From NCBI GenBank assembly GCA_016935315.1, contig JAFGRD010000046.1, positions 1 through 64,000 on the forward strand: a DNA stretch of 64,000 nt. Reading direction: 5' to 3'. The position numbers and the translations under genes are program-made. Below are positions 25,701 to 33,675 of this stretch, piece by piece. Each line of letters begins with the position of its first letter. The first letter of the stretch is position 1. The notes below the pieces were generated by a model. It saw nothing but the letters and a program-made list of their open reading frames with translations. It searched no databases and had not been told where the DNA came from. Source of the DNA: Pirellulales bacterium. GTDB lineage: Bacteria; Planctomycetota; Planctomycetia; Pirellulales; Thermoguttaceae.

Positions 25701-26924
25701 ATGTTGGCAAGATTTGCGCTAGCGGCCACGGTTGTTCTGGCAGCGGCAAGCCAAGTATTGGGCCAGGCCGCCACGCCCCAGCCGGAGAGCACGACCGACT
25801 CGAATTGGCGCCGCGCAGGCGATGCGGTCGGCACCGCAACGACAACCCCCGAAGGCGATTCCGCAAGCGCGCCGACTCCCAAGGCCGCCGGCACCCCCGC
25901 CGGCCGGGGCGTTAGCCCGGTGGGCGCCACGGCCACCTTGCCCAACAAGCACGGCCAGGTCTGGCGGGAGTACGACATCAGCCCCTACACCCTCCGGGTC
26001 ACCACGACCAGTCGCCCGGAACAGGCGATCATCGACTGGGTCCTGCGCGAGACGGGCTACGAGGCCTGGCATTCCGAGCCGCTGGGAATCCTCAGTGCCA
26101 CCGCCCGCACCCTACGCGTCTACCATACGCCCGAGATGCAGGCCGTCGTGGCCGATCTGGTCGATCGGTTCGTTTCCACCGAAGCGGAGAGCTCGACGTT
26201 CAGTCTGCGGGTGGTGACGGTCAATCATCCCAACTGGCGTGCGCGGGCCCAGCAACTACTGCGTCCGGTCATGGTGCAGACGCCGGGCATCGGGGCCTGG
26301 CTGGTTCAGAAGGAGGACGCCGCGGTGCTGCTGGCCGACTTGCGCCGTCGTAGCGACTACCGCGAACACAGCTCGCCGCACCTGATGGTCAACAACGGCC
26401 AGTCGACGGTCGTTTCGACGTTGCGTTCGCGCAATTACATCAAGGACGTGACGCTGCGGCCGGAAGTGTGGCCGGGCTACGAGGTCCAGCCGGGCCAGAT
26501 CGACGAGGGTTTTTCGATGGAGTTCAGCCCGTTGCTCTCGGCCGACCAGCGGACGATCGACGCCACGATCAAGTGCAACATCGACCAAGTGGAGAAGATG
26601 GTTCCGGTGATGATCGACGTGCCCGTGCCGTCGGCGCCGCGTCAGCGCGCCCAGATCGATGTGCCGCAAATCACGCAATTCCGCTTCCACGAGCGGTTCC
26701 GGTGGCCGGTGGACCACGTGCTGTTGGTGGGTATGGGCATGGTGGCCTTGCCGGTTCCGGCCGACGCGAAACCCCTGGTGCCCGGCATCCCGTTGCCCAT
26801 CGGTTCGACACCGCCGCGGGCCGACCTGCTGGTGTTCGTCGAAAGCCAGGGCAAGTCGGTTGTGCCCGCCCAGGTAAGCCGCAGCCCGTTGAGCCAGCCG
26901 AAGACGTACCGCGGGCGTTATTGA
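25701..26924 (+). CDS. Exported protein of unknown function with secretin-like module
   Basis: A 407-residue protein with a signal peptide (about residues 1-21, ending VLGQA). A low-complexity Thr/Ala/Pro region leads to ISPYTLRVTTTSRPEQAIIDWVLRETG and LRVYHTPEMQAVVADLVDRFV. These resemble the short beta-alpha modules at secretin N-termini, and related planctomycete proteins exist, but no secretin pore domain is present. The rest is beta-rich (QSTVVSTLRSRNYIKDV, FSMEFSPLLSADQRTIDATIKCNIDQVEKM), close in style to a secretin core fragment. The ATG has GGGAGG seven bases upstream and a good promoter. It may assist a secretion system or bind the envelope; both are inference. Confidence 0.68.
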   Translation: MLARFALAATVVLAAASQVLGQAATPQPESTTDSNWRRAGDAVGTATTTPEGDSASAPTPKAAGTPAGRGVSPVGATATLPNKHGQVWREYDISPYTLRVTTTSRPEQAIIDWVLRETGYEAWHSEPLGILSATARTLRVYHTPEMQAVVADLVDRFVSTEAESSTFSLRVVTVNHPNWRARAQQLLRPVMVQTPGIGAWLVQKEDAAVLLADLRRRSDYREHSSPHLMVNNGQSTVVSTLRSRNYIKDVTLRPEVWPGYEVQPGQIDEGFSMEFSPLLSADQRTIDATIKCNIDQVEKMVPVMIDVPVPSAPRQRAQIDVPQITQFRFHERFRWPVDHVLLVGMGMVALPVPADAKPLVPGIPLPIGSTPPRADLLVFVESQGKSVVPAQVSRSPLSQPKTYRGRY

Positions 26925-27130: not shown

Positions 27131-28450
27131 ATGAGTTCCACGCAGCGACGGGTCGTCATCACGGGCATCGGCGTTGTCAGCCCCTTGGGAAGCACGAAAG
27201 AGTCTCTCTGGGAGGCCCTTTCGGGGGCGCAGAGCGGCGTGACCCTTCTGACAGCCTATCCGGCCGGCGCCCTACCGGTGCGGTTCGCTGCGGAAGCGGG
27301 CCAATTCCAGGGGAAAATCGACGATTTCGGCCCGCTGGAGAAGGAACGCAAGAAGGCGCTTCGCAAGGGGCTGAAGGTAATGTGCCGCGAGTGCCAAATG
27401 GGGGTTGCCGCGGCCCAGTTGGCCCTGGCCGATGCGGGGCTTGTCTCGGGAGGGACCGACCCGACGCGATCCGGCATCACCTTCGGCGCCGACTACATGC
27501 TCACCGTGCCCGAGGAATTCACCGAGGGAATCCTCGAATGTCTTGACGAACAGCAGCAGTTTCAGTTTTCGCGCTGGGCGACACAAGGGATGCCCAAGAT
27601 GTCGCCGCTGTGGCTGCTGAAGTATCTGCCCAACATGGCGGCCAGCCACCTGGCAATCTACAACGATCTGCGCGGTCCGAACAACTCGCTGACCCTGCGG
27701 GAAGCGGCGTCCAACGCGGCCGTGGGCGAGGCCTTCCAGACGGTTCTCCGCGGCAGCGCCGACGCTATGTTGGCCGGCGCCACCGGCACGCGACTGCACC
27801 CGATGAAAATGGTCCACGCTATCCAGCAGGAAGAGTTGGCCACCGGCAACGGCGACCCGGCCCGGGCCAGCCGTCCCTTCGATCGCGACCGGACCGGGAT
27901 GGTGCTCGGCGAAGGGGCGGGTGCCCTTTTCCTGGAGGAGCTTTGCCAGGCTCAAGCCCGCGGCGCGACCATTTACGGCGAAGTCGTCGGCAGTGCCATC
28001 AGCTCCGCGGTCGACCGCAACCTGGTGGCCAATCGCCGGCAGGCCATGGCCAACGTGCTTCGGGCCGTGTTGCGAAATGCCGGGGCAAGCGCCGACGAAA
28101 TCGGACACCTCCACGCCCACGGCCTGAGCACCCGCAGCGGCGACATCCAAGAGGCTCAGGCGATGAGAGAACTCTTCGGCGACCGGGCCCAGCCGATACC
28201 GGTCGTGGCGGCCAAGGCCAATTTCGGCAACCTGGGCGCCGGCAGCGGCATGGTCGAGCTGACGGCCAGCCTGCTGGCCATGCAGCACGATCGGCTGTTT
28301 CCGCTGTTGAACTACGAGACACCGGACCCGGAGTGTCCCGTGGCGGCCGTGGCCGACGATCAGACGAGCCCGGGCGAGAGCTTCATCACGTTCAACGTGA
28401 CGCCTCAAGGCCAGGCCAGCGCGGTGATGGTCCGGCGATTCCAGGGATAG
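27131..28450 (+). CDS. Ketoacyl-synthase-family protein lacking the active-site cysteine
   Basis: A 439-residue thiolase-fold protein of the KAS/FabF family: RRVVITGIGVVSPLG at the start, GPNNSLTLREAASNAAVGEA where the nucleophile elbow should be, RPFDRDRTGMVLGEGAGAL and HAHGLSTRSGD. The catalytic Cys aligns with Glu191. The first His (H330) is kept; the second is Asn367 (KANFGNLGAG instead of KxxxGH). Condensation is therefore not expected; a chain-length-factor, decarboxylase or structural partner role is inferred. The ATG at 27131 has a near TAGGTTG ribosome-binding site. No other fatty-acid or polyketide genes flank it. Confidence 0.88.
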   Translation: MSSTQRRVVITGIGVVSPLGSTKESLWEALSGAQSGVTLLTAYPAGALPVRFAAEAGQFQGKIDDFGPLEKERKKALRKGLKVMCRECQMGVAAAQLALADAGLVSGGTDPTRSGITFGADYMLTVPEEFTEGILECLDEQQQFQFSRWATQGMPKMSPLWLLKYLPNMAASHLAIYNDLRGPNNSLTLREAASNAAVGEAFQTVLRGSADAMLAGATGTRLHPMKMVHAIQQEELATGNGDPARASRPFDRDRTGMVLGEGAGALFLEELCQAQARGATIYGEVVGSAISSAVDRNLVANRRQAMANVLRAVLRNAGASADEIGHLHAHGLSTRSGDIQEAQAMRELFGDRAQPIPVVAAKANFGNLGAGSGMVELTASLLAMQHDRLFPLLNYETPDPECPVAAVADDQTSPGESFITFNVTPQGQASAVMVRRFQG

Positions 28451-28921: not shown

Positions 28922-30475
28922 ATGGACGCCAGCGAAGTGCTCCGGATCGTCGACGCGATCCACCGCGACAAGAACATCGACAAGGAAATCGTCTTCGAGG
29001 GGATCGAAGCGGCCTTGGTTTCGGCCGCCAAGAAACACTTTGGCGAGGAAGAGGAGATCGTTATCCACATCGATCGCGAGGATGGATCGATTTCGGGCAC
29101 GCACAACGGCGTTCCCTTGTCGCCGGAGGCCATGGCTGAACGGATCGGCGCCCAGACGGCCAAGCAGGTGATGATCCAGAAGATCCGCGAGGCCGAGCGG
29201 GACGCGCTGTTCGACGAGTACGAGGAACTCAAGGGGCAGTTGGTTACCGGGGTGATCCAACGCTATGAAGGGGGTGCCGCGACGGTGTCGCTGAGCAACG
29301 TGGAGGCTATCCTGCCGCGAGGCGAGCAGATTCCGGGTGAAACGCATCACGCCAACGAACGGGTGCGTGCCACCGTGTACGAAGTCCGCAAGGCGGGAAG
29401 CCGTGTCAAGGTGATCCTCAGCCGCACCAAGCCGCAATTGGTTCAACGCCTGTTCGAGCAGGAGATCCCCGAGATCGCCGAAGGCGTGATCGAGGCCAGG
29501 GCCATCGCTCGGGAGCCCGGCTACCGGACCAAAATCGCCGTCAGCAGCACCGACCAGCGCGTCGACTGCGTGGGGGCCTGCGTGGGTGTGCGCGGCAACC
29601 GGATTAAGAACATCGTCGACGAGCTCGGCGGCGAGCGGATCGATATTGTCCGCTACAGCGACGACATGCAGACGCTGATTCCCAACGCCCTGCAGCCGGC
29701 GGAAGTCGAGGAGGTCATTCTTTGTCAAATGCTGGGCCGGGCAATCGTGTTGGTCCGCGAGGACCAGCTTTCGCTGGCCATCGGGCGGCGAGGCCAGAAT
29801 GTCCGATTGGCCAGCAAACTGTGCGGCTGGGACATTGAGATCATGACGCGCGAGGAACTCGACGAACAGATCGAACAAGCGGTCGTCGGCTACTCCTCCT
29901 TGGAGGGGGTCGAGGATGAGCTTGCCGAGAAGCTGGTGGGCGAGGGATTTCTGTCTTATGATGATTTGTCGGTCATCGAACCCGACGCCCTGATGGAGAT
30001 GGGCGGGCTAACCGCCGCGGAGGGCGATGGAATCGTTCAACAAGCGGAGATCAAGGCAGAAGAGGCTGAGCGGGCGGCTGCCGAACAGCGACGGCTCCAG
30101 CGGGAACAAGACCACCGAGAGGCAGCCGAAGCGGCCATGGCCGAGCAGGCGGCCGAGGCGGCCGCAGCCGAAGAGCCCGTGGAAGGGGACGCCGATCAAC
30201 AAGTCGCAACGGCCGCAGCCGATCAGCCGCCGGAGGAACCGGTCGATACACCGGTCGATACACCGGCCGATACACCGACCGACGAGCCAACCGACGAGCC
30301 GACCGACGAGCCAACCGACGAGCCGACCGACGAGCCAACCGACGAGCCGACCGACGAACGAGCGATGGACGATGGCTCCTCGGCCGACGCGCGGTCGCCG
30401 GGTGAGTATGCCGAGGACGAATCGGTTTCGACGCCGGTGGCGGAGGAGGAACGCCAGCCTGAGGAGGCCGGATAG
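28922..30475 (+). CDS. nusA: Transcription termination/antitermination factor NusA
   Basis: Binds RNA polymerase and controls pausing, termination and antitermination. The 517-residue protein has the N-terminal domain (about 1-125, [20 protein letters not shown]), S1 domain (about 130-200, [18 protein letters not shown]) and two KH domains ([20 protein letters not shown] and [16 protein letters not shown]). Part of a C-terminal HhH region follows (about 325-365). The last 130 residues are an Ala/Glu-rich coil and an acidic tail made of VDTP and PTDE four-residue repeats, unusual for NusA. The ATG is set by the family N-terminus. It heads the nusA-infB-rbfA operon. Confidence 0.96.
30238..30357 (+). 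repeat. 12-bp coding repeat array in nusA
   Basis: About ten consecutive 12-bp units, first GTCGATACACCG-like, then ACCGACGAGCCA/G, encoding VDTP and PTDE. Typical of slippage-prone tandem DNA. Confidence 0.85.
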
Positions 30476-30564: not shown

Positions 30565-33186
30565 GTGGCTGTCCGCATCTACGCATTAGCGAAACAACTG
30601 AATCTCGACAGCAAGGTGCTGGTGGATTTCTGCACCAAGGCGGGCATCACGGGTAAAGGGTCTGCGCTGGCCAGCCTGTCGGACGACGAGGTGGCCAAGC
30701 TCAACACCTACATGAGCGGCGCGAAGGGGAAGAAACCGGCGGCGGGTTCCAGGGTGGCCAAAGCGGGTGTTGCTCCCGAAACTCCCCGGGAGTTTCGGCG
30801 GGAGGACTATATTGGGCCAACAGGCGCGGTAACGGGCAAGGTCCCGGTGCTGGCCCCCAAGGCGAAGAAGCCGGAACAGGAACCGCCGAAAACGAGTCCG
30901 CCGGAGGCGGAACCGCCCGAGTTGAAACCCGCCGAGAAGGCCCCTCCGGCGATTAAGCTGGCCCCCATGCCCGTCGCTGCCAAGCCGCCCGAAAAGCCCG
31001 AGGCGGCTGAGCCGGCTCCCCAAAAGCCCGACATCAAGCTCCCCCTGGACGTGATTCGGGCCGGCAAAGTGGGAACCAAACCGCTCTCGGAACACATCCG
31101 CAAACACGAGAAGAAGAAGGCAGCCGCCGCTGCCAGAAAGACGAAGCCCTCCCCCCGCGGCGCGGCGCCGAGCGAACCGACCGCGCCGACCGAGCCGGCG
31201 CTGCCCGGCCGAGATCGCCCGCGACGCACACCTCGGGTGGCTGCCGCCAAGGGCGAAGGAGGGCCGGCGCTGGGGGGACGCGAAGCGCGGCAACTGAAAC
31301 GCAAACGAACGGCCACTGTCCGACGGCGCCGCCCCGAGGACACCGAGGAGGGCACCCCCGCGACCCGGCGACGCACGCGTATCCGGCGGACCGGGACGAA
31401 TACGGCGGCCCCGCGCAAGACGAACGTCGTGATCGATTTGCCCTGTACGGTCCGCAGCTTCTCCGAAGCCTTGGGCATTCCGGCGTCCTCGGTGGTGGCC
31501 GAGCTGTTCAAGCTGGGCACGGCCAGCAACATCAACGCGAACCTCGAGCCCGAAATGGCCGAGCTCTTGTCCGTGGAACTGGGTGTGGAAGTCGATTTCC
31601 GGCAGCAAGTTGCCCTGGAAGACGAGGTGCTCGATAAGTTGCAGCGGGAAGACGACCCGGCGGCGCTGAAGCCGCGCCCGCCCATCGTGACCTTCCTGGG
31701 CCACGTCGACCACGGCAAGACGTCGCTGCTGGACCGCATCATCGGGATCGACGTCGTCTCGGGAGAGAAGGGCGGGATCACGCAGCACATCCGGGCGTAT
31801 CGGGTCAAGAAGGGTGACCGGGCCATCGCCTTCGTCGATACGCCGGGGCACGAGGCGTTTACGGAAATGCGGGCCCGGGGGGCCAACGTCACCGACATCG
31901 CCGTGCTGGTCGTGGCCGCCGACGACGGAGTGATGCCGCAGACCGAGGAGGCAATCAGCCACGGCCGGGCCGCAGAGGTCCCCATGGTGGTAGCCCTGAA
32001 CAAGATCGACTTGCCGGGCGTCAATCCACAACGGGCGTTCGAGCAATTGGCCGCCAACGAATTGCTGCCCACCGAGTGGGGCGGCGATACGGAAGTGATC
32101 AAGACCAGCGCGACGACCGGCGAGGGCGTCGACGATCTGCTGGAGACGCTGCTAACCGTTGCCGAGCTGCACGAATACTCGGCCAATCCCGATCGGCCCG
32201 GCTTGGGCACCTGCCTGGAGGCCGAGTTGCACGAGGGCCGCGGGGTGGTGGCCAAGCTGCTGATCCAAAACGGGACGCTCCGCGTGGGCGACGTGATCGT
32301 CTGCGGCGCGGCGTACGGCCGGGTCAAGGCGATGTACGACACGCTCGATGGTCGCAAGAGGCACAAAGAGGCCGGCCCCTCGATGCCGGTCAACGTGACG
32401 GGGCTGCACATCGCCCCAGGCGCCGGCGACCGCTTTTACGTGCTCGAGGATATCTCGCAGGCCCGACACCTTGCCGAGCGACGGGCCGCCGAAGCCCGCC
32501 AGAAGGAGCTCGGCGGTGGCCGACCGCACGTGACGCTGGAAACCCTCTTCGATCGGCTGGACGAAGAAGAGGTGCGGATGCTGAACATCATCCTTCGGGC
32601 CGACGTTCGGGGTTCGATCGAGGCGATCCGCAAGGAATTGACCAAGCTGGAGCACCCCGAGGTGCAAATCAAGATCCTCCAGGCCACCGTCGGCGGGATT
32701 ACCGAAGCCGACGTCCACCTGGCCGACGCGTCGGACGCGGTGATCATCGGCTTCAACGTGGTTCCCGACGAAGGAGCCCGCGTGCTGGCCGACCGCCTCG
32801 GTGTGCAAGTCCGACGATACGACATCATCTACCAGGTGACCGAGGATCTCAGGGCGGCCCTGGAAGGCATGCTCAAACCGGAACAGCACGAACGGCAGTT
32901 GGGTCGCGCGCTGGTGCAGCAAACCTACCACATCAGCCGGCTGGGTACCGTGGCGGGATGCCGTGTGTTGATGGGGAACATCCAGCGCGACGCGCGGGTC
33001 CGCGTCGTCCGCGAAAGCCGCATCATCGGCGACTACCCGCTCGACTCGCTCAAACGCGAGAAGGACGATGCCCGAGAGGTTCGTGAAGGCTTCGAGTGCG
33101 GTATGAAGCTGGCGGGGTTCAATGACTTGAAGCAGGGGGACATTCTCGAGGCCTACAAGATCGAAGAGGTCGCCCGAACGTTCTAG
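30565..33186 (+). CDS. infB: Translation initiation factor IF-2
   Basis: GTPase that brings initiator tRNA to the 30S subunit. The 873-residue protein has an N-terminal IF2N module (VRIYALAKQLNLDSKVLVDF), a long Pro/Lys/Ala-rich linker (about 60-285) and a second IF2N module (VRSFSEALGIPASSVVAELF). The GTPase domain shows GHVDHGKT at 379-386, DTPGHEAF and NKID; C-terminal beta-barrel and IF2C domains follow. The GTG at 30565 is preferred because AGGGAG lies eight bases upstream and the family N-terminus begins there. It lies 89 bases after nusA and nine bases before rbfA. Confidence 0.97.
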   Translation: MAVRIYALAKQLNLDSKVLVDFCTKAGITGKGSALASLSDDEVAKLNTYMSGAKGKKPAAGSRVAKAGVAPETPREFRREDYIGPTGAVTGKVPVLAPKAKKPEQEPPKTSPPEAEPPELKPAEKAPPAIKLAPMPVAAKPPEKPEAAEPAPQKPDIKLPLDVIRAGKVGTKPLSEHIRKHEKKKAAAAARKTKPSPRGAAPSEPTAPTEPALPGRDRPRRTPRVAAAKGEGGPALGGREARQLKRKRTATVRRRRPEDTEEGTPATRRRTRIRRTGTNTAAPRKTNVVIDLPCTVRSFSEALGIPASSVVAELFKLGTASNINANLEPEMAELLSVELGVEVDFRQQVALEDEVLDKLQREDDPAALKPRPPIVTFLGHVDHGKTSLLDRIIGIDVVSGEKGGITQHIRAYRVKKGDRAIAFVDTPGHEAFTEMRARGANVTDIAVLVVAADDGVMPQTEEAISHGRAAEVPMVVALNKIDLPGVNPQRAFEQLAANELLPTEWGGDTEVIKTSATTGEGVDDLLETLLTVAELHEYSANPDRPGLGTCLEAELHEGRGVVAKLLIQNGTLRVGDVIVCGAAYGRVKAMYDTLDGRKRHKEAGPSMPVNVTGLHIAPGAGDRFYVLEDISQARHLAERRAAEARQKELGGGRPHVTLETLFDRLDEEEVRMLNIILRADVRGSIEAIRKELTKLEHPEVQIKILQATVGGITEADVHLADASDAVIIGFNVVPDEGARVLADRLGVQVRRYDIIYQVTEDLRAALEGMLKPEQHERQLGRALVQQTYHISRLGTVAGCRVLMGNIQRDARVRVVRESRIIGDYPLDSLKREKDDAREVREGFECGMKLAGFNDLKQGDILEAYKIEEVARTF

Positions 33187-33195
33187 GCCAGCACC

Positions 33196-33675
33196 ATGTC
33201 CAACCGACGCGCTCAAAAAGCGGCCCAAGCCATCCGCGAGGTGGTCAGCATGGCGATCCTCGCCGAGTTGAAGGACCCTCGTATCCGGGATGTGACGGTC
33301 ACCTACGTCGAAGTCTCCGGCGACTTGCGCCACGCCAAGGTCCACGTCTCGGTGATGGGTGACGAAACCCACCAGAGCTTGAGCCTGCGGGGATTGCAGA
33401 GCGCCGCCGGCTACCTGCAGTCGAAGATCTCCGAACGGATCGACCTGCGGTATACCCCCCGGCTGAACTTCATGCTGGACCAGGGAGTGAAGCGATCGAT
33501 CGAGGTGGCCCGAATCCTCAACGAGGTCCTACCACAGAATGTGGATCACGAGGCCTCGGACGACCAGGAGATCCCGGGTGACCAGGAGATCCCGGGCAAG
33601 GAGGAGATCCCGGAGGAGCAGGAGGCCCCAGCCGACGAGGAGGGTTCGCCGGACGAGGAGGACCTGGCCTCGTAA
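33196..33675 (+). CDS. rbfA: Ribosome-binding factor A
   Basis: Assists late maturation of the 30S subunit. The 159-residue protein has the KH-like RbfA core: RAQKAAQAIREVVSMAIL, ELKDPRIRDVTVTYVEVSGDLRHAKVHVSV, GLQSAAGYLQSKISERIDLRYTPRL and FMLDQGVKRSIEVARIL. The last 45 residues are an acidic extension with repeated EIPG/EIPE units, longer than in most RbfA. It starts nine bases after infB on the same strand and is surely co-transcribed. Confidence 0.95.
   Translation: MSNRRAQKAAQAIREVVSMAILAELKDPRIRDVTVTYVEVSGDLRHAKVHVSVMGDETHQSLSLRGLQSAAGYLQSKISERIDLRYTPRLNFMLDQGVKRSIEVARILNEVLPQNVDHEASDDQEIPGDQEIPGKEEIPEEQEAPADEEGSPDEEDLAS

Follow-up and report, generated by a model that had tools for sequence, protein, structure and literature searches.

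A Cys-less FabF homologue upstream of nusA

The window (the whole stretch of Pirellulales DNA that was analysed, 64,000 nucleotides) carries a gene for a FabF-like ketoacyl-synthase homologue in which the catalytic cysteine is replaced by an acidic residue, followed by nusA, infB and rbfA (Table 1). Its product matches the N- and C-terminal Pfam ketoacyl-synthase domains (3.6e-36 and 3.4e-24, respectively), and the five best-matching sequences of solved structures are all FabF in HMMER alignments. These alignments and a MAFFT alignment with Cys synthases agree in placing Glu191 on FabF Cys163, His330 on His303, Lys362 on Lys335 and Asn367 on His340. Both substitutions named in a preliminary description of the locus, Glu191 for the catalytic Cys and Asn367 for the second His, are thereby borne out, and no other Cys takes the nucleophile's place in the alignments. 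The GFGG gating loop of FabF reads TPQG in the window protein, and FabF Thr305 is Leu.

Table 1. Features of the acidic synthase gene and its neighbours in the window
Feature	Position	Strand	Basis and remarks
Upstream neighbour (C9), ~388 aa, conserved	25758..26924	+	Sub-threshold Pfam match only
Acidic (Cys-less) FabF-like ketoacyl-synthase homologue, 439 aa, ATG start	27131..28450	+	ORF, Pfam, alignment, fold
RKGLKVMCRE, residues 78-87; basic, equivalents of FabF ACP-docking Lys65/Arg68	27362..27391	+	Alignment
Signature PLWLLKYLPNM, residues 159-169 (FabF 131-141), near-invariant	27605..27637	+	Alignments
Glu191 codon, at FabF catalytic Cys163 position	27701..27703	+	Alignments
His330 codon (FabF His303), kept	28118..28120	+	Alignments
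Asn367 codon (FabF His340)	28229..28231	+	Alignments
nusA, downstream	28922..30475	+	TIGR01953 above cut-off
infB, downstream	30565..33186	+	TIGR00487 above cut-off
rbfA, downstream	33196..33675	+	TIGR00082 above cut-off

The fold is that of FabF. The AlphaFold2 monomer model (mean pLDDT 88.5, pTM 0.89) has 1j3n as its top structural match (Z 56.0, rmsd 2.1, 402 aligned, 34% identity), the 50 structural matches listed are mostly FabF (Z 52.8–56.0, 25–34% identity), and Foldseek agrees. A profile built from 42 relatives gave its top score, 288 bits, to a B. subtilis FabF entry. Residues 161–167 of the monomer model have pLDDT <50, which may fit a dimer segment; in FabF the counterpart of the surrounding segment (159–169) lies at the acyl pocket and the dimer interface. 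Against the NCBIfam fabF model, the window protein scores 275.3 bits versus a cut-off of 493.75 and 596.4 bits for a relative's canonical FabF (locus L056), and none of the 20 NCBIfam matches listed for it reaches a curated cut-off. With a 56-residue piece as query, the five alignments listed contain no Glu-bearing solved structure, and the act chain-length factor (CLF) 1tqy_B is listed as a weak match.

The source genome (7.1 Mb, 172 contigs) contains seven synthase matches besides the window gene: two acidic (L002 with Asp, L003 with Glu), four Cys synthases (L004–L007) and one type I PKS domain (L008). Pfam matches delineate a FabZ1-FabG-ACP-FabZ2-Cys KS operon on contig C107, which has no acidic gene.

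No synthase or ACP gene adjoins 27131–28450 in the window. The recurring gene order in relatives is fabD-fabG-acpP-fabF-(C9)-acidic KS-nusA-infB-rbfA, and the reference genes at L056 reach the fabD, FabG, ACP and fabF cut-offs. Neighbours were counted in a set of named loci, the best 80 of 555 matches, which stem from Pirellulales/Pirellulaceae MAGs, Blastopirellula marina, Roseimaritima, Mariniblastus, Thermogutta and others. C9 lies upstream in 45/67 of these loci with >1.8 kb upstream; where >5.5 kb is available, FabF-type and ACP genes each occur upstream in 19/52 (either strand), and NusA follows in 24/57 loci with >2.5 kb downstream (either strand), all counts that are not independent since the loci share ancestry. 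Most loci of this best-80 set are without fab genes upstream. The early remark that no standard partner is adjacent therefore holds for the window but not for the wider group, as many relatives follow fabD-fabG-acpP-fabF or directly precede a Cys synthase. The missing neighbour at the window looks like a later rearrangement.

Conservation of the acidic position

We sampled 101 genomes of the family and 294 of the phylum. A match at E ≤1e-50 was found in 100/101 same-family genomes, a threshold that also admits Cys synthases. Loci were picked by similarity to the window protein, leaving out matches that cover <300 query residues, and sequences with identical last 250 residues were collapsed (180 to 163), giving 163 distinct aligned synthases, 22 with Cys and 141 Cys-less. 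Two synthase matches (G012:C142:4353-5522 and G041:C348:699-1985) have one in-frame TAG each, which could stem from recoding or gene decay as well as from a sequencing error.

Position 191 is acidic in all 141 Cys-less proteins (Glu 120, Asp 21) and Cys in 22/22 canonical ones. The best 80 of 555 loci and the query make up 81 rows, all of which have both Glu191 and Asn367, with His330 in 74/81, so neither substitution is due to chance or sequencing error. The preliminary description had called Glu at this position unusual; this is apt in that it differs from the Gln of CLFs, but Glu/Asp is the rule in the planctomycete clade, and Glu was already tabulated in 2009 in the part of PMC2649909 consulted. 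The remaining catalytic positions are looser across the 141 proteins: the His330 position holds His in 111 and N, Q, D, Y, A, S, C, F or R in 30, and position 367 holds Asn in 122, while Lys362 (Lys in 132) is the next-best kept classical catalytic position after the acid. Gate and substrate residues are gone (Asn404 in 141/141, Thr305 in 140/141, Phe400 in 134/141). Mapped on a tree of 52 thinned acidic rows, position 191 changes six times, exclusively between Glu and Asp, compared with 13 changes at the FabF His303 position, nine at His340 and four each at Lys362 and Glu376. Among the classical catalytic positions, the acid alone is kept in 141/141 while the His positions drift, which argues that an intact catalytic triad is not required.

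Two other regions are under stricter conservation than in the 22 Cys synthases, namely the docking basics and the 159–169 segment. Judged by the FabF ACP-contact residues given in the part of PMC7138838 consulted, Lys79 (FabF Lys65) is basic in 141/141 acidic proteins and Lys82 (Arg68) in 140/141; among the 22 Cys synthases these positions are basic in 15 and 17, respectively. The FabF Lys69 position is hydrophobic in nearly all acidic proteins, and the Arg206 position is Glu/Asp in 103/141, reversing one ACP contact. Four residues of PLWLLKYLPNM never vary (Pro159, Leu163, Leu166, Asn168), and two more, Trp161 and Met169, are each kept in 140/141. Arg221 is kept in 112/120 Glu-bearing and 9/21 Asp-bearing proteins; we set this Glu191–Arg221 covariation aside as confounded by clade.

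Tandem pairs, phylogeny and probable essentiality

A DNA pattern encoding the signature peptide matched 94 of the 294 phylum genomes (reversed control pattern, 0), 41 of them among 52 same-class genomes and 53 among the other 242. From the latter 53 we read 40 loci outside class Planctomycetia, a set picked by signature and not by similarity. The Cys position holds Glu in 36 of these, Asp in one, Gln in two, Asn in one and Cys in none; His occupies the His303 position in 8 loci and is absent from it in 32, and the His340 position is Asn in 18. The amide variants (Gln in L327 and L348, Asn in L323) recall the Gln of CLFs. A second synthase lies directly downstream on the same strand in 34/40 loci, and 33 of these 34 align with Cys-His-His-Phe, the stretch of L341 ending before those positions. 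Twenty-four of the 34 gaps were measurable, with seven 4-base overlaps, 18 within 103 bases and six of 496–812 bases. FabZ-type dehydratases and ACP precede the pair in 6/40 only, and in 6/40 (L329, L334–L336, L347, L357) no downstream synthase was found within the ~3.6–3.7 kb fetched. At most Planctomycetia loci read, the acidic gene is not beside a Cys synthase; the pair is retained in the Planctomycetia families f7 and f8 (L164, L165).

The acidic proteins form one clade in Planctomycetota (SH-aLRT 98–100) in quick trees without bootstrap, built from subsets thinned by identity or hand-chosen. In these trees all Cys-less members fall in a single clade, one change from Cys, the 'acidic' group of one tree including the Gln and Asn variants. 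Family f19 (INTERMEDIATE; two loci, L166 and L167) has the same operon with two Cys synthases, the first of which has Cys and GFGG as well as PLWLLKHLPNM (first ORFs: L166, 3815-5284, reverse strand; L167, 3875-5287). The first synthase of L166 is sister to the acidic clade (support 98) in the tree with CLFs, and a second tree places both f19 first synthases beside that clade. Family f19 is a candidate for the ancestral Cys-Cys stage. An order of events that would fit these data starts with a tandem pair bearing the motif, followed by Cys loss and then by duplication and dispersal in Planctomycetia.

A TraDIS study of Planctopirus limnophila, in the part of PMC10632474 consulted, gives five synthase paralogues, all essential (ESSENTIALITY). 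Our genome G283 is the TraDIS strain: its second contig (37,010 bases) is identical to NC_014149.1 over the first 15 kb. The ten matches in G283 are accounted for by three large multidomain frames and five synthases that stand alone. Alignment shows Cys-His-His in three of these synthases, while the other two, at C1:3333198-3334475 and C1:2198353-2199606, are acidic, each with Glu. All pairs of these synthases reach the relative BLAST score of 0.1 used in PMC10632474 (weakest ~0.11), where the paralogue cut-off, in the part consulted, also asks for a common COG group. The agreement of gene counts, as distinct from locus tags, strongly suggests that both acidic genes are essential. One acidic gene (A) closes its fab cluster and is followed by a gene on the opposite strand, and the other (B) has opposite-strand flanks; polar effects on downstream genes are thus unlikely, as neither is directly followed by a co-directional gene. 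Elsewhere in the genus, a 12-kb region (G263:C1:4799188-4810862) containing several ketosynthases and a large synthase is absent from the G283 matches and is probably a secondary-metabolite cluster. The P. limnophila plasmid NC_014149.1 (L318) carries annotated terminase, portal, capsid and tape measure phage genes.

A putative silent partner of a Cys synthase and comparison with known systems

We consider it probable, with moderate confidence, that the acidic protein is a non-condensing, CLF-like (KS-beta) subunit of a planctomycete type II fatty-acid/polyketide-like synthase that pairs with a Cys synthase. The ancestor would have been a FabF-like synthase, the first of a tandem pair in the order FabZ1-ACP-FabZ2-KS1-KS2. 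A single replacement of Cys by an acid would then have occurred in KS1, with KS2 retaining Cys-His-His and the GFGG gate. In the proposed complex, the acidic protein would dock ACP through its conserved basic patch and pair with the Cys synthase (C107 or C138 in the source genome) through the PLWLLKYLPNM segment; it would shape its partner's acyl tunnel while carrying no acyl chain itself. Duplication and relocation away from the operon would have taken place in most sampled Planctomycetia, and the copy in the window would have come to lie in the fabD-fabG-acpP-fabF/nusA-infB neighbourhood. The finding is wider than first stated: the gene belongs to a widespread group of planctomycete Cys-less, partner-like synthases that is probably essential.

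This KS-beta reading is favoured by the pairs at 34/40 loci outside the class, with 4-base overlaps like those of known KS/CLF pairs; an acid that is fixed while the His positions drift, the gate is lost and the docking basics are kept; and the single clade, the f19 pair, the C107 operon without an acidic gene and the TraDIS count. Several observations count against it. The window gene and most Planctomycetia genes stand away from a Cys synthase, six of the 40 outside loci are without a downstream synthase, FabZ and ACP accompany the pair in only as many, and Arg206 is reversed. The acidic proteins do not group with three actinomycete CLFs. In the nearest relatives (best 80 of 555), Glu-His-Lys-Asn is near-complete, and Lys362 is kept in 132/141 with four changes, which looks like retained chemistry.

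The separation from a Cys synthase at most Planctomycetia loci read would suit a stand-alone, non-catalytic FabF paralogue that forms homodimers and, needing no Cys partner, binds ACP or acyl-ACP as a scaffold or sensor. Such a role would also fit the retention of ACP-docking residues alongside the loss of catalytic ones, and the near-invariant 159–169 motif. We regard it as unlikely, though the best placed of the alternatives, because outside Planctomycetia a synthase directly follows in 34/40 loci and the clade is continuous.

Less likely still is an active Glu-His-Asn enzyme evolved in Planctomycetia, for instance an acyl- or malonyl-ACP hydrolase or a dehydratase-like enzyme. The invariance of Glu191 and Asn367 and the frequent retention of His330 and Lys362 in the window's group (best 80 of 555) speak for it, as does the Cys-His-Asn triad used by priming KS enzymes in the part of PMC12664062 consulted. 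Against it, His330 is replaced in 30/141 proteins and His is absent from this position in 32/40 loci outside the class, and neither Thr305 nor the GFGG oxyanion loop is retained.

A KSQ-like malonyl-ACP decarboxylase making acetyl-ACP primer would likewise have a polar residue for Cys and mostly keep His330 and Lys362, but we find it very improbable: the window protein has Glu where KSQ has Gln and lacks the second His as well as the gate and Thr305, and the first His is not kept clade-wide. Moreover, FabH-type PF08545 genes occur in 99/101 family genomes, so primer supply should not need the acidic protein; replacement of FabH by the acidic protein as primer source is disfavoured on the same count. 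Two genomes of genus g24 (G063, G075) have no PF08545 match while congeneric G023 has one, an absence that may be due to incomplete assemblies. A functionless, decaying duplicate, suggested by the lost catalytic residues, is barely credible given 52–77% identity to the query and 59 invariant columns in 41 aligned relatives (L223 was left out for a stop within its coordinates), an acidic match in 16/16 same-order genomes of the phylum sample and probable essentiality in P. limnophila.

Beyond the KS-beta reading itself, we tentatively propose, as a possibility somewhat short of even, that an essential type II fatty-acid-like synthase of primary metabolism is built on an obligate live/dead ketosynthase pair, independent of actinomycete KS/CLF, with the Cys-Cys stage surviving in f19 and the carboxylate, not the triad, as the conserved functional element. 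If so, the split into live and silent ketosynthases known from antibiotic polyketide synthases arose a second time, in the seemingly essential lipid synthesis of a bacterial phylum. It would offer a natural test of the function of silent synthase subunits and a candidate cause of unusual planctomycete lipids, and would serve as a warning that several planctomycete FabF-like genes probably cannot condense.

FabF shares with the window protein its fold and the ACP-docking Lys65/Arg68 equivalents; the window protein differs in having no Cys, Asn for the second His and no GFGG gate, and in scoring below the fabF cut-off. In the KSQ domains of loading modules, Gln replaces Cys and both His are kept. 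The window protein resembles them in the polar replacement of Cys, and differs in having Glu, in losing the second His and in standing alone.

Part of the residue set is already known, unexplained, from one paralogue of Rhodopirellula baltica, a member of the same phylum. In the part of PMC2649909 (2009) consulted, Table 2 gives the FabF paralogue NP_866153 (RB 4527) with Glu163 and NP_865682 with Asp163, and both were grouped with anammox paralogues thought to differ in substrate and function. Compared by tabulated residues, NP_866153 equals the window protein at 7/8 (Glu163, His298, Leu300, Lys328, Asn333, Glu342, Pro392), the exception being position 302, Asp versus Thr in the window protein; the part consulted gives no function, cross-genome distribution, partner or essentiality for it. 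The portion of PMC10132072 consulted reports KS-CLF pairs in 14 phyla including Planctomycetes, many of them 'FAS-FAS'; its main text, so far as consulted, mentions Planctomycetes once and does not mention cysteine, glutamine or active site. Titles and abstract starts in the open-licence literature yielded no paper describing the acidic clade, how it pairs or whether it is essential.

An anatomical parallel lies in the actinomycete KS/CLF pairs. In three plasmid-borne pairs (L343–L345), the two genes overlap by 4 bases and lie beside an ACP gene; in place of Cys the CLFs carry Gln (two) or His (one), and Asp and Arg replace the first and second His, respectively. Another locus (L346), meant as a fourth CLF control, proved to hold two adjacent Cys synthases. 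The acidic clade and these three CLFs are separate in a quick tree (support 98 and 100), and membership in the actinomycete CLF family is accordingly rejected for the three compared. Like KS-beta, the acidic proteins are Cys-less KS relatives with losses at both His positions and, outside the class, their genes mostly overlap or adjoin a Cys synthase. Unlike CLFs, which have Gln or His, they carry Glu/Asp; Planctomycetota put the Cys-less gene first, and the window gene stands alone. The planctomycete protein thus shares the anatomy of a CLF without belonging to that family, and it seems to have been derived independently from FabF-like synthases.
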